DNA of 64,000 nucleotides, taken from NCBI RefSeq assembly GCF_030127125.1, contig NZ_CP126156.1, positions 992,001 to 1,056,000 on the forward strand. Reading direction: 5' to 3'. The translations under genes and the position numbers were made by a program. Origin of the DNA: Halobaculum litoreum (GTDB lineage: Archaea > Halobacteriota > Halobacteria > Halobacteriales > Haloferacaceae). Under the pieces are notes generated by a model. The model did not search any database and was not told the DNA's origin. It saw only the letters and a program-made list of their open reading frames with translations. Positions 32,300 through 37,070 of the stretch are shown piece by piece (position 1 is the first letter of the stretch; the number at the start of each line of letters is the position of its first letter).

Positions 32300-32773
32300 T
32301 TACGCGTCGTCCTCGAGGAGGTCGACCGCGGTCTCGTACGTGTACCGGAAGTCCTCGTCGAGCTTGTCGCCGCGGTAGTAGTTGACCAGGCGGCGGATCT
32401 TCGACTCGGTGTTCTGGAGCGCGCGCTTGTTCTGCGCGTCCTGCTGGTTCTCCGCCATGTGCTCGCGCAGGCGGACGGCCTGCTCCATCAGGTTGCGGAG
32501 GTCCTCGGGCAGCGACGACGCGGCGTCGTGCTCCTCGAGGATCTCGGTGACCTTCTTGCCGGTCGCGCGCTTGACGTTCGGGACGGGCGTGCCCTTCACG
32601 CCCTCGTCGCGCAGCTTCAGGCCGATGACGCTCGGGTCGTGGCCCTGCTCGGCGAGTTCGACGACGCGCGCTTCGACGTCGGCGGCGTCGACGTCGCTCC
32701 ACTCCGGGGGTTCGTCTGCGACGGGGTTGTCCGAACCGGACGACCCACGTCGGCGGGTGTGCATTCGTGCCAT
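32300..32773 (-). CDS. rps15: 30S ribosomal protein S15
   Basis: The 157-residue archaeal S15 (uS15) has the N-terminal extension MARMHTRRRGSSGSDNP followed by LAEQGHDPSVIGLKLRDEG and the rRNA-binding core NKRALQNTESKIRRLVNYY. It binds the central domain of 16S rRNA. It leads the cluster with the RecJ-like gene 31 bp downstream. No clear TATA box is seen in the 289-bp gap upstream. Confidence 0.97.
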   Translation of the reverse strand: MARMHTRRRGSSGSDNPVADEPPEWSDVDAADVEARVVELAEQGHDPSVIGLKLRDEGVKGTPVPNVKRATGKKVTEILEEHDAASSLPEDLRNLMEQAVRLREHMAENQQDAQNKRALQNTESKIRRLVNYYRGDKLDEDFRYTYETAVDLLEDDA

Positions 32774-33062
32774 TGTCTGAGTTGGAACGTCGGCCGCAGA
32801 AGCGAGCCACCGCCGGCTGTCGCTCCCGGTCGCGCCACACGGCGCGCTCGGGCAGTCGGCGGGGGCACATCCGCAATCCCAAGCCCACGAGGGGCGAGTC
32901 GGAGTTGCGGCCGTGCTGTTCCCGTTCGACAGGTCTGGGTCGCGCGCCTAATGGCTTTCCATCCGTCGCGCTCCGGACGTCGCGCCCGCGTGGGTGGGCG
33001 TGCCGTGGCCGACTCCAGTCGTAGCCCTTATGTACGGACCCGCGGTACTCGGTAGTGTAGGC
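32774..33062. other. 289-bp intergenic region between rps15 and tRNA-Ala
   Basis: This gap holds the rps15 promoter on one side and, near 33027-33031, a CTTATG box about 33 nt before tRNA-Ala. I see no convincing small gene or repeat in it. Confidence 0.4.
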
Positions 33063-33178: not shown

Positions 33179-34888
33179 TCACCCCCAACTGCCGGGGAGC
33201 GTCCGCTCGTTCGCCAGGAGGAGTTCGATCGTCGCTTCGACCGTCGCGAACTCCCGGCCGCGCCGCACGGTCCCCGCGTCGGGGTCCCACTCGACGTAGC
33301 CGGCGTACGCGAGTTTCGGGAGGTGGACGTGTCGGAGCGCGAGCCGGTCGCGGTCGGTCGCGGTCGCCGCGACGTCGGCCGCCCGCACCTCCCCGTCGCC
33401 GCGCACCAGCCGTTCGAGCACGCGCCGCCGGACCGGGTGTGCGAGTTGCGTGAACAGTTCGTCCTGCCGATGGGTGTCGGTCGAACCGTTCTCGCCCGAC
33501 GACTGTGTGCCACCGATTCCCATACACGGTGGTACGCGGACGGACGTGATACGTGTTGACGCTATGCTTCTTAGCTCCTCGAAGAACCACCGCAGCAGCT
33601 TCGCCTCCGCCCGGCGGAGGTGTCGCAGCCACGTCGACGACGCGATCCCCATCGCCGTCGCCACGTCCTCGGCACTGCTCGCCCGCGGCCACTCGAAGTA
33701 GCCCCCGAGGTAGGCGGCGCGGAGCGTCTCCCGTTGCCGGTCGGTCAAGGCTCCCGTGAGCGAGTCGCGGTACTGTCGGGTGGTCCGGATCGGTCGATCG
33801 AGCGTCCGCTTCGCGACGATCGTCGCGTCCGGGTACGCCGCCCGGATCCGGTCGGTCAGCTCCTGCAGGTCGGCGTCGGCCCCGATCTCGGAGACGACGG
33901 TCGTCGTCGTCCCCGACGTCGTCATCGACCGAACGCTCGCGCCGGCCAGCGTCAACGTCCGCGCCGGGGAGCGGTCGGTGTCGAGCTCGACGAGCGCGGC
34001 CTCGTCGTCCGTCGTCACGACTCTGACCGCGGCAAGGTCCGGGAGATCGGCGGCGGCCGCGGCGACCGCGTCGCCGTCGGCGCCGACCACGGTCACGTAG
34101 TGGAGCAGCCGGTCGTCGGACGTCGGGACGACTCCCTCGAACTCGCACCGGTCGCCCACGGCCGCCGCGAGGTCGGACAGCACGGTCGCCTCGGGGATCC
34201 GGAACGTCACCTCGATGACCGCGTCGGCGGCCAACGACCGTTGATAGCGTTCGGCACGTCGCCGCTCGCGGCCCGCCTCCACCCGCGCCTCGTGGCGCTC
34301 CGTCACGTCCCGGAGGATCGCGAGGTGGCGCCCGGGGAGGACGTCCGGCGTCGCCGCGAACTCGACGGTTCGCCGCTCCCCGTCCGGACGCTGGAGCGGG
34401 AACAACCCCCGGTCGAGCCCGTCCGAACGGAAGTCGCCCCACGCGCTCTCCACGTCGTAGCCCGGGGCGGCGAAGTCGGTGATGCGCTCGCCCAGCACCG
34501 CCTCGTACGGGAGCCCCAACAGTTCACAGGCCGCCGGGTTGGCGTCGACGTAGCGGGCGTCGTCGTCGGCGATCAGGATCGCGTCGAACGCCGCCTCGAA
34601 GACGGCGCGGTACTGCCTCGCCTTGTCGAGGTCCGTGTCGTCGCCCTCCGACGGCCGATCGGTCCCGGCGCCCGCCGCCGGGAGCCACCACACTCGCCCT
34701 CGAGCACCGACCTTCTTGGTCCGGAGGTCGCCGTCGGCGGCCAACCGTCGGAGCCGCTTGTACGCCGTGGTCCGGGCGCACCCGACCGCCTCGGCGACCT
34801 CCGTCGACGTGAACGGCTCGCCCGGCGCACCCTCGAACACGCTCACCAGCCCGCCGCCGCGATACCGCCCGCTCCCCCCCTCCTTCAT
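33179..34888 (-). CDS. Bat-type PAS/HTH regulator, in-frame with a C-terminal DUF7344 winged helix
   Basis: The 569-residue reading has an N-terminal winged helix (FTSTEVAEAVGCARTTAYKRL, about 22-75), a PAS domain (about 96-215), a bacterioopsin-activator GAF/HTH module (about 230-440) with DRQRETLRAAYLGGYFEWPR and the HTH_10 end, and after WFFEELRSIAS a second winged helix of the DUF7344 type. The last 114 residues could be an independent gene (ATG 33523) with its own TATA-like box at 33547-33556. The junction is AT-richer and a stop (TAA) lies one frame away. It diverges from pilA and may control it. ATG 34888 is followed by a G7 run. Confidence 0.75.
   Translation of the reverse strand: MKEGGSGRYRGGGLVSVFEGAPGEPFTSTEVAEAVGCARTTAYKRLRRLAADGDLRTKKVGARGRVWWLPAAGAGTDRPSEGDDTDLDKARQYRAVFEAAFDAILIADDDARYVDANPAACELLGLPYEAVLGERITDFAAPGYDVESAWGDFRSDGLDRGLFPLQRPDGERRTVEFAATPDVLPGRHLAILRDVTERHEARVEAGRERRRAERYQRSLAADAVIEVTFRIPEATVLSDLAAAVGDRCEFEGVVPTSDDRLLHYVTVVGADGDAVAAAAADLPDLAAVRVVTTDDEAALVELDTDRSPARTLTLAGASVRSMTTSGTTTTVVSEIGADADLQELTDRIRAAYPDATIVAKRTLDRPIRTTRQYRDSLTGALTDRQRETLRAAYLGGYFEWPRASSAEDVATAMGIASSTWLRHLRRAEAKLLRWFFEELRSIASTRITSVRVPPCMGIGGTQSSGENGSTDTHRQDELFTQLAHPVRRRVLERLVRGDGEVRAADVAATATDRDRLALRHVHLPKLAYAGYVEWDPDAGTVRRGREFATVEATIELLLANERTLPGSWG
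33547..33556 (-). promoter_or_regulatory. possible internal promoter for a separate DUF7344 gene
   Basis: ACGTATCACG on the minus strand is centred 28 nt before ATG 33523, inside the longer regulator reading. It supports the idea that the DUF7344 part was a separate gene. Confidence 0.35.
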
Positions 34889-35006
34889 ACCGTGTCGGAC
34901 GCGAGCCGATTCGATATCGTTGACGGTACTCCGGACCCGGGGGCGTCCCGACCCGCACGATCGACGCTCGCTCCGGCGCGACCGACCCACAACACGACGG
35001 CTCGCT

Positions 35007-35020
35007 GATAATTATTTATC
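35007..35020 (+). promoter_or_regulatory. strong TATA box of the pilin gene
   Basis: GATAATTATTTATC is the most AT-rich core promoter in the window. It predicts a transcript start near 35037-35042, giving a leader of about 90 nt before the pilin ATG, unlike the leaderless pattern elsewhere. Confidence 0.65.
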
Positions 35021-35044
35021 GGATGTGATTCTATGGACAAAAGG

Positions 35045-35105
35045 GTTATTAGGGATAACGGTCGTAGCGTGGCCTACAGGACTACCGGGGGATGGAGCCC
35101 TCCGG
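35045..35105 (+). promoter_or_regulatory. structured 5' leader of the pilin mRNA
   Basis: Two hairpins can form in the predicted leader. GTTAT (35045-35049) pairs with ATAAC (35055-35059). CCGG-GGG (35085-35091) pairs with CCC-CCGG (35098-35105, one bulged T) around a hexaloop ATGGAG that contains a ribosome-binding-like GGAG. A G7 tract follows at 35104-35110. Confidence 0.4.
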
Positions 35106-35128
35106 GGGGGACTGTGGAAACCGAACCA

Positions 35129-35530
35129 ATGGACTTCAACGCACTCTTCGACGACGACCGCGCCGTCAGCCCGGTGATCGGTGTGATCCTCATGGTCGCG
35201 ATCACAGTGATCCTCGCGGCGGTGATCGGCTCGTTCGTCCTCGGCCTCGGCAACAGCGTACAGCAGACGGCACCGAACGCGAACTTCCAGTTCGACTTTG
35301 ACAGTGGCACCGACACGGCTGTGGCAACGCACACTGGTGGTGACTCCATCCCGGCGAACCAACTGGAAGTAGTCGCAGGTAACACGACCACGACTTGGGG
35401 AAGTGACCCCGTAACTGCCGGTGTATCCTCCGGCGACGTCGACACGAGCGGTGCAGACACCGTCCGCGTGATCTGGTCGTCCGAGAACAACGAGACGTCT
35501 CAGACGCTCGCCGAGGAGAGCACCCCGTAA
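35129..35530 (+). CDS. pilA: type IV pilin (DUF1628 family)
   Basis: The 133-residue prepilin has a short N-terminal leader ([14 protein letters not shown]) followed by [20 protein letters not shown], the class III signal cut by prepilin peptidase PibD, and a beta-rich head of about 95 residues that starts [18 protein letters not shown]. Asn/Thr content is high, with sites for N-glycosylation (NTT, NET). It should be the major subunit of an adhesion pilus served by one of the nearby PilB/PilC sets. Start 35129 is chosen over 35033 because that ATG precedes the predicted transcript start. GC is lower than in neighbours. Confidence 0.93.
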
Positions 35531-35614
35531 CGCCGCGGACCGTTTCGCGCTTTTCGCAGACGCACTAGACCGATAGCCCTGCCTACACTTCACGACTGAT
35601 ACTCTGAAACGAAC

Positions 35615-35623
35615 GTTTATACC
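35615..35623 (+). promoter_or_regulatory. TATA box for the large pilin-like gene
   Basis: GTTTATACC is centred 28 nt before ATG 35646, giving the large pilin-like gene its own promoter separate from pilA. Confidence 0.6.
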
Positions 35624-35645
35624 GTGGCTTCCCGTTGTCCGCACG

Positions 35646-37070
35646 ATGCCTTCAGGGGGGCCTCGCGGGCGTCGGGCGCAGGGCGACGTGATCGGGATCG
35701 TGTTGTTGCTGGCGATCACCGTCATCGGCGCCGGCACCGTCGTCGCGTTCGGCGGCGACGCCATCGACGGGATCCGCGAGTCGGCGACGACCGGCGCGGC
35801 CGAGCAGTCGATGACGCAGTTCGACTCCAAGGCCAGCCTCGTCGCCCACGGCGAGAGCGACACCCAGCGCGTTCGCCTCGCCGGGGCGGCCGACGGGGAA
35901 CGGGTCGTCGACGCCGACGCCGGGTGGATGAACCTCACGGTCAGGAACGCCACCACCGGCGCGGTCGAGGAGGAACTCGGCAACGTCACCCTCGGCGCGG
36001 TCGTCTACCGCGACGGCGACGCCAGCGTCGCCTACCAAGGTGGCGGGGTGTGGCGGCAGTCGGCCGACGGCAGCTCGATGGTGTCGCCGCCGGAGTTCCA
36101 CTACCGCGGGACGACGCTGACGCTCCCGCTCGTCCGGGTCGCCGGCGACCGCCGCCTCGACGAGGAGGTCGTCGTCCGACGGGCGAACGCGTCGACGGCG
36201 GTGTACCCCGACGCGAGCGCGGGGTACGCCAACCCCCTCGACGACGGGAAGGTCGTGATCACGGTCGGGAGCACGTACTACGAGGCGTGGGGTCGGTTCT
36301 TCGAGCAACGGACGAGCGGCGACGTCGTGGTCGACCACGGCAACGAGACCGCCACCGTCGAGCTGATCGTGCCGTTCGACACCGACTTCGACAACGCCGT
36401 CGCGTCGACCGCGCCCGGCGGCATCGACGCGAACCCCGGACCGCCGCCCAACCCCTACAACGTCGGCGTGTTCCAGCCGTCGGCCGACGACCTGATCGAG
36501 TCGCGCGTCGACGAGTGCGTGAACGACGCCGGCGCCTGCAACGAGTCGGCGCCGCCGGGGACGCTCGTGGGCGCCGAGTCGTACTTCGTGAACGGGAGCT
36601 ACGCCGGCGACCTCACGGTCGACACCGCCGGCGGGAACGTGAGCCTCGTCGTGGCCGAGGACTTCGAGCCCGACTCCGTCACCGTCTCCGGGGGCGGTGT
36701 GTTGACCGTGTACGTCCGGGGGGACGTCGCCGTCGACGGCGGCGACACCGTCAACAACGGCGGCGACGCCCAGGACGTCCGCGTCGTCGTTCACTCCGAC
36801 GGCTCCGTGAACTTCAACGGCAAGTACCGCTTCATCGGGTTTCTCTACGCGCCGGGCTCCGACGTCGACCTGAACGGGGGCGGCGGGAAGAACCACAAGA
36901 ACGTCGAGGGCGGCATCGTCGGCGAGACGATCGACATCAACGGGAAGCCCAACAAGTTCGAGTACGACCCCACGGTCGCGAGCATCGACCTCGACGTGAC
37001 CGCCAGCACGGCGCCGCGGATCACGTTCCTCCACGTGTCTGTCACCGAGGTCCGCGTCGAGGAGGACTGA
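35646..37070 (+). CDS. large pilin-like surface protein (DUF7289 start, DUF7305-like polymer-forming end)
   Basis: The 474-residue protein begins with a class III-type signal (GRRAQGDVIGIVLLLAITVIG), so its N-terminal helix could join a pilus. Residues 40-260 form a beta-rich region related to the DUF7289 protein at 37119 (AYYxAWGRFFE segment). After a Pro linker near 265, residues 315-440 are a repetitive beta region (VSGGGVLTVYVRGDVAVDGG; NFNGKYRFIGFLYAPGSDVD; GGIVGETIDING) like DUF7305 or other polymer-forming/beta-helix domains. A tip adhesin or minor pilin is inferred. Confidence 0.75.
   Translation: MPSGGPRGRRAQGDVIGIVLLLAITVIGAGTVVAFGGDAIDGIRESATTGAAEQSMTQFDSKASLVAHGESDTQRVRLAGAADGERVVDADAGWMNLTVRNATTGAVEEELGNVTLGAVVYRDGDASVAYQGGGVWRQSADGSSMVSPPEFHYRGTTLTLPLVRVAGDRRLDEEVVVRRANASTAVYPDASAGYANPLDDGKVVITVGSTYYEAWGRFFEQRTSGDVVVDHGNETATVELIVPFDTDFDNAVASTAPGGIDANPGPPPNPYNVGVFQPSADDLIESRVDECVNDAGACNESAPPGTLVGAESYFVNGSYAGDLTVDTAGGNVSLVVAEDFEPDSVTVSGGGVLTVYVRGDVAVDGGDTVNNGGDAQDVRVVVHSDGSVNFNGKYRFIGFLYAPGSDVDLNGGGGKNHKNVEGGIVGETIDINGKPNKFEYDPTVASIDLDVTASTAPRITFLHVSVTEVRVEED

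Follow-up and report, generated by a model that had tools for sequence, protein, structure and literature searches.

A predicted 5'-terminal clamp in the mRNA leader of a haloarchaeal adhesion pilin

Where does the mRNA of a haloarchaeal adhesion pilin begin, and what might the RNA that precedes its start codon be doing? For Haloferax volcanii, leaderless transcripts are reported to make up 72% of those that code for proteins (PMC4983044). The question is raised by a pilin gene located within a 64,000-nucleotide stretch of Halobaculum litoreum DNA (hereafter, the window), for which an initial annotation had proposed a structured mRNA leader of about 90 nt with two hairpins. The haloarchaeal genome carrying the window is 3.04 Mb in size, and it was compared with those of 10 other members of the same genus, for a total of 11 genomes.

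The pilin gene and its promoter

The gene encodes a type IV adhesion pilin of 133 amino acids, and the ATG at 35129 that was originally taken as its start codon proved correct, since the Pilin_N domain (PF07790) lies at the N terminus of the translated product. The match to this family (E = 2.8e-26; 92.6 bits versus a cut-off of 25.2) places the protein within it, and three other matches to the pilin were found elsewhere in the genome at E ≤ 1e-8. Downstream of the pilin are genes for DUF7289/DUF7305 and DUF7266 proteins and a T2SSF protein. Upstream and divergently oriented is a Bat-type regulator (33179–34888, − strand) possessing PAS, BAT, HTH_10, HTH_20 and DUF7344 domains, and it is possible that it serves as a local regulator of the pilin. 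The elements preceding the gene, and the gene itself, are as follows.

35012–35020, + strand: distal AT-rich element TTATTTATC, from the sequence; similar TTAT(T/C) stretches occur at about the same distance in several promoters of the genus (by eye)
35026–35038, + strand: upstream element TGATTCTATGGAC, of the type (T)GAT(A/T)...TGnAC, from pilin promoters of the genus (weak, by eye)
35046–35053, + strand: core TATA box TTATTAGG, from the spacing of 8-mers to ACAG in 21 promoters of the genus
35076–35128, + strand: predicted mRNA leader of about 53 nt (start ±3), from TATA spacing
35129–35530, + strand: type IV adhesion pilin (Pilin_N, PF07790), 133 aa, from the reading frame and Pfam match

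The promoter was located by comparison within the genus, where 42 distinct pilin-type starts were collected and the 21 with an ACAG motif were used as anchors. The remainder consisted of 8 second genes in operons, 8 members of other pilin families, and 5 pilins lacking the motif. Among the 21 promoters, AT content peaks 29–30 nt before ACAG (90% and 95% AT by column), and a TATA-like 8-mer starts 28–36 nt before it (mean 31.8, sd 2.4). This spacing is close to that separating TATA from AUG in the leaderless-looking genes of the window (25–33 nt), and ACAG therefore sits at the expected first transcribed base. From a TATA box at 35046–35053 and ACAG at 35076–35079, we infer a start for the pilin mRNA at approximately 35076, which would give a leader of about 53 nt.

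A leadered rather than leaderless mRNA, as originally suggested, is borne out by these positions, because the promoter lies too far upstream for a leaderless transcript; the predicted length of 53 nt exceeds the 6-nt minimum for a leadered haloarchaeal mRNA. The proposed leader of about 90 nt did not hold up, since the core TATA box identified in relatives places the start nearer the gene. The AT-rich stretch at 35012–35020, which lies upstream of the core TATA box, is evidently what had been read as the TATA box, and it is probably a piece of an upstream element and at most a weak second promoter. It had also been stated that nearly all other genes of the window have their promoter about 28 nt before the start codon. 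This was true for seven genes (TATA at −25 to −33), but only 12 of 56 candidates reached a TATA score of at least 4, and the other five of the 12 had theirs at a greater distance.

Further upstream, a GAT(A/T) element begins 15–27 nt before the TATA box in 16 of the 21 pilin promoters of the genus, a weak pattern seen by eye, and elements of the TGATTCTATGGAC type are a candidate for a common activator site of pilin promoters. The order that recurs upstream of pilin genes in the genus is a GAT(A/T) element, the TATA box, ACAG...CUGU and, finally, the AUG.

Fold of the leader and its conservation in the genus

When folded from 35076, the window leader reached −21.2 kcal/mol with an outer stem, a 2-bp stem and a 7-bp inner helix. 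The structural features are listed below, together with a second hairpin described previously.

35045–35059, + strand: second hairpin of the initial annotation, GTTATTAGGGATAAC, with arms GTTAT/ATAAC; −0.9 kcal/mol and not kept in the nearest relative
35076–35079, + strand: 5' arm of the outer stem, ACAG, where the mRNA is predicted to begin (comparison and folding)
35082–35083, + strand: 5' arm of the middle 2-bp stem, partner 35108–35109 (comparison and folding)
35085–35091, + strand: 5' arm of the inner helix, CCGGGGG (comparison and folding)
35092–35098, + strand: loop of the inner helix, AUGGAGC, unconserved
35099–35105, + strand: 3' arm of the inner helix, CCUCCGG (comparison and folding)
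35112–35115, + strand: 3' arm of the outer stem, CUGU (comparison and folding)
35117–35128, + strand: mostly unpaired linker preceding the start codon (folding of leaders of the genus)

In this predicted structure, the first four bases of the leader would pair with CUGU some 33–36 nt downstream, clamping the 5' end in one imperfect hairpin, and a mostly single-stranded linker of 12–13 nt would then lead to the AUG. The hairpin at 35085–35105 folds just as it was first drawn, with GGAG (35094–35097) in its loop. The second hairpin fared less well, as it holds the TATA box and would fall outside an mRNA that begins at 35076. Masking of the GGAG as a Shine-Dalgarno-like motif, which the initial annotation had implied, also lost its footing, since the motif is peculiar to the window and the loops of the other orthologues are unrelated. 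What survives is the broader notion of a structured pilin leader, which is backed by conservation in the genus, order-wide statistics and a published Haloferax 5'-UTR, while its original boundary, length, second hairpin and implied masking do not.

Compared to shuffled sequences, the window leader had a z of only −0.88, and 40 of 200 shuffles folded equally well. A fold beyond chance would thus not be claimed from this one sequence, and it is the comparison with relatives that carries the case. Closing of the 5' end onto the region before the AUG gave 10.9 pairs in the window leader (L060) versus 4.5 expected, a rank of 0.01 in favor of a predicted clamp. Among the 21 leaders of the genus, a closing rank of ≤ 0.05 was obtained for 12 (mean z −1.56), although the ACAG anchor had been picked after its pairing was seen and the test is therefore flattered. 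The last 12 nt before the AUG were paired at a mean of 0.12 in these leaders versus 0.49 in shuffles.

A plain MAFFT alignment of the 21 leaders misaligned the 3' arm, and a covariance model (R1) was therefore built from nine orthologues. Their shared fold has 93.9% of cells paired, versus 46–65% for slid versions. No pair among the nine, the outer stem included, was changed on both sides, and the covariation score was not above that of shuffles; one pair (columns 16 and 30) occurs as G-U, G-C or A-U. R1 matched 10 of the 11 genomes of the genus exactly once, always immediately upstream of this pilin, with the model's own sequences among the ten genomes matched. It had no matches in 29 genomes of other genera and did not reach distant paralogues. 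The pattern TCACAG...CTGTGTG occurred in pilin leaders and in unrelated places, about as frequently as a reversed control. In four of the orthologues (L061, L062, L063 and L067), a competing CUCCC-UUCG-GGGAG hairpin is possible that would exclude the inner helix, and it is not conserved in all.

Several other candidates were considered for the leader and rejected. An upstream ORF starting at the loop AUG (35092) is missing in the nearest orthologue, a simple consensus scan of the + strand from 34900 to 35700 yielded no terminator-like site for a transcription attenuator, and no Rfam family matched over the pilin leader at its gathering score.

Pilin leaders across the order

Outside the genus, pilin starts were set by the TATA rule alone. 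A total of 116 loci gave 96 distinct starts, 77 of them with a TATA score of at least 4, and from these 67 leaders (≥ 35 nt) or 71 leaders (≥ 20 nt) were folded. As a control, 154 other genes, called by a simple GC3 rule, yielded 57 with a TATA score of at least 4 and 42 folded leaders. A leaderless mRNA (< 10 nt) was predicted for 5 of the 77 pilin starts and for 14 of the 57 control genes. Relative to dinucleotide shuffles, the 71 pilin leaders had a mean z of −1.69 (se 0.17) and the 42 control leaders a mean z of −0.50 (se 0.23), with standard errors that are optimistic because related species are not independent.

The 5' end of the 71 pilin leaders formed 6.03 pairs with the region before the AUG versus 3.07 expected, and a closing rank of ≤ 0.05 was found for 27 of 71 pilin leaders versus 6 of 42 leaders of other genes. 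Pairing of the last 12 nt before the AUG was 0.28 in the pilin leaders versus 0.50 in their shuffles, and 0.41 versus 0.46 in the controls. The other 44 of the 71 pilin leaders fail the closing test, and some of these are second operon genes or have a wrong TATA assignment. Archaellin leaders (L210–L239, n = 28) were short and structured (mean z −1.66), and closing of their 5' end was absent, with 3.59 pairs versus 3.60 expected.

Two other genera provided changes on both sides of a pair. In genus g27, four leaders have a common multi-branched fold closed by GCACG/CGTGC, and at three pairs at least one sequence has both bases changed with pairing kept. For the genus that includes Haloferax mucosum (15 genomes), 40 distinct pilin starts supplied a test set of 10 leaders of the first operon gene. 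A closing rank of ≤ 0.04 was seen for all 10, and two pairs are changed on both sides with pairing kept. All 9 leaders compared for spacing have a closing stem (e.g., GACAC/GTGTC) that starts 30–31 nt after TTTAAG. The leader predicted for the two-pilin operon of Haloferax is 99–114 nt, in agreement with the pilA4-pilA3 transcript of H. volcanii, which was shown to be bicistronic by Northern blot and to have a 5'-UTR of > 100 nt by dRNA-seq and RNA-seq, described as "rare for haloarchaeal transcripts" (PMC6490895). Because of its bicistronic layout, the operon examined here is taken to be pilA4-pilA3. That mRNA resembles the one proposed for the window in belonging to an adhesion pilin operon with a long 5'-UTR, one seen experimentally, and its probable Haloferax counterparts fold into a 5'-end clamp; it differs in its length of ~100–114 nt and in its sequence.

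The inner architecture of the leaders varies by lineage, with a single hairpin in Halobaculum and a multi-branched junction elsewhere. Comparison supports the promoter position, the hairpin, the clamp, the open linker and the recurrence of this arrangement across the order. We consider it an evenly balanced question whether haloarchaeal adhesion pilin mRNAs form a class in which a 5'-terminal clamp helix pairs the initial bases of the transcript with the segment that precedes an open linker and the AUG, while sequence and inner architecture drift. A search that covered open-access papers, and not subscription papers or preprints, found no account of a structured leader common to archaeal pilin mRNAs. 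A pilB1 stem-loop and the long pilA4-pilA3 UTR are already known; the pattern of pilin leaders across the order, which is a prediction, is the more interesting result.

Possible roles of the clamp

What might such a clamp accomplish? We tentatively propose, at a little short of an even chance, that a 5'-terminal clamp shields the pilin mRNA and makes ribosomes enter internally. The protective effect, the mode of ribosome entry and any regulation are what we infer from the predicted fold. The clamp would shield the 5' end from 5'-end-dependent decay and would also block the 5'-end ribosome loading typical of leaderless mRNAs, such that ribosomes would have to enter at the open linker. The outcome would be a durable mRNA whose translation is adjustable. 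In bacteria, the mRNA of an abundant surface protein carries a stabilizing 5'-terminal hairpin of the E. coli ompA type, which the pilin clamp may resemble. Post-transcriptional control of the pilin through its leader, as suggested at the outset, is plausible. If pilin mRNAs of the order do share such a clamp as a class, it would be a cis element for the mRNAs of surface appendages, cap-like and independent of sequence, in organisms that otherwise prefer leaderless transcripts. Moreover, one class of genes with a common leader architecture throughout the order would be a case in which control of archaeal adhesion pilus abundance by RNA structure can be tested, and H. volcanii is a tractable model for it.

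The main rival, less probable but still a serious possibility, is a translational brake, in which the stem-loop would lower initiation to a level that depends on growth phase, perhaps in concert with the 3'-UTR, as in another haloarchaeal transcript. In a haloarchaeal 5'-UTR stem-loop, stabilization abolished translation and destabilization made it constitutive (PMC2636863), and removal of gvp 5'-UTRs raised reporter output (PMC6550001). That published haloarchaeal stem-loops lower translation (PMC2636863, PMC6550001) counts against a protective clamp. In addition, pilin transcripts of H. volcanii are reported to be lowest in stationary phase (PMC6490895), and a stem-loop in the pilB1 5'-UTR of Halobacterium salinarum has been proposed to mask its start (PMC4292770). 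However, simple masking is a poor fit to the pilins, whose stem stops short of the start codon and whose last 12 nt are less paired than those of shuffles. The precedents also differ from the pilin. The "hp" transcript has a 5'-UTR hairpin that affects translation, but it is a different gene, and the effect was measured for hp, whereas the pilin has a predicted structure (PMC2636863). Similarly, pilB1 is a type IV pilus gene for which a 5'-UTR stem-loop has been predicted, but it belongs to the pilB1 operon and is not a pilin, and its stem is said to mask the SD and GUG whereas the pilin start is open (PMC4292770).

It is unlikely that the conserved sequence is instead bound by a specific protein or small RNA, in which case the identity of ACAG/CUGU would be decisive. 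ACAG is invariant in the 21 aligned leaders of the genus, which were chosen for having it, CUGU is nearly so, and the lack of covariation within the orthologues would suit such a site. Outside the genus, however, the closing stems GCACG/CGTGC and GACAC/GTGTC keep the pairing without the sequence. Because the clamp is conserved independently of sequence and is followed by an open linker, a structural task at the 5' end is a better fit than recognition by a ligand or protein, and masking of the start does not fit.

Slightly less likely again is the original reading that transcription is driven chiefly from the distal AT-rich element, with a start near 35040 and a leader of about 90 nt. The element is TATA-like and related ones are present in relatives, but it is the proximal TATA box that stands at a near-fixed distance from the stem in 21 promoters, and the same TATA-to-stem rule predicts the known > 100-nt leader of Haloferax. 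Finally, that the conserved stretch is coding and the pilin begins upstream (e.g., at ATG 35033) is scarcely credible, for although the frame is open from 35033 to 35530, that ATG lies upstream of the TATA box, and the pilin frame is not kept among orthologues because their CUGU-to-ATG distance of 15–18 nt does not vary in steps of three.

The proposed pilin clamp is not the only leader structure in the window. An S15-Halobacteria leader (RF03143; 69.1 bits) was found at 32865–32925 on the − strand, upstream of an S15-like ORF (32300–32773). It is a curated structured mRNA leader from the same order, and unlike the leader of the pilin it belongs to a ribosomal protein gene.
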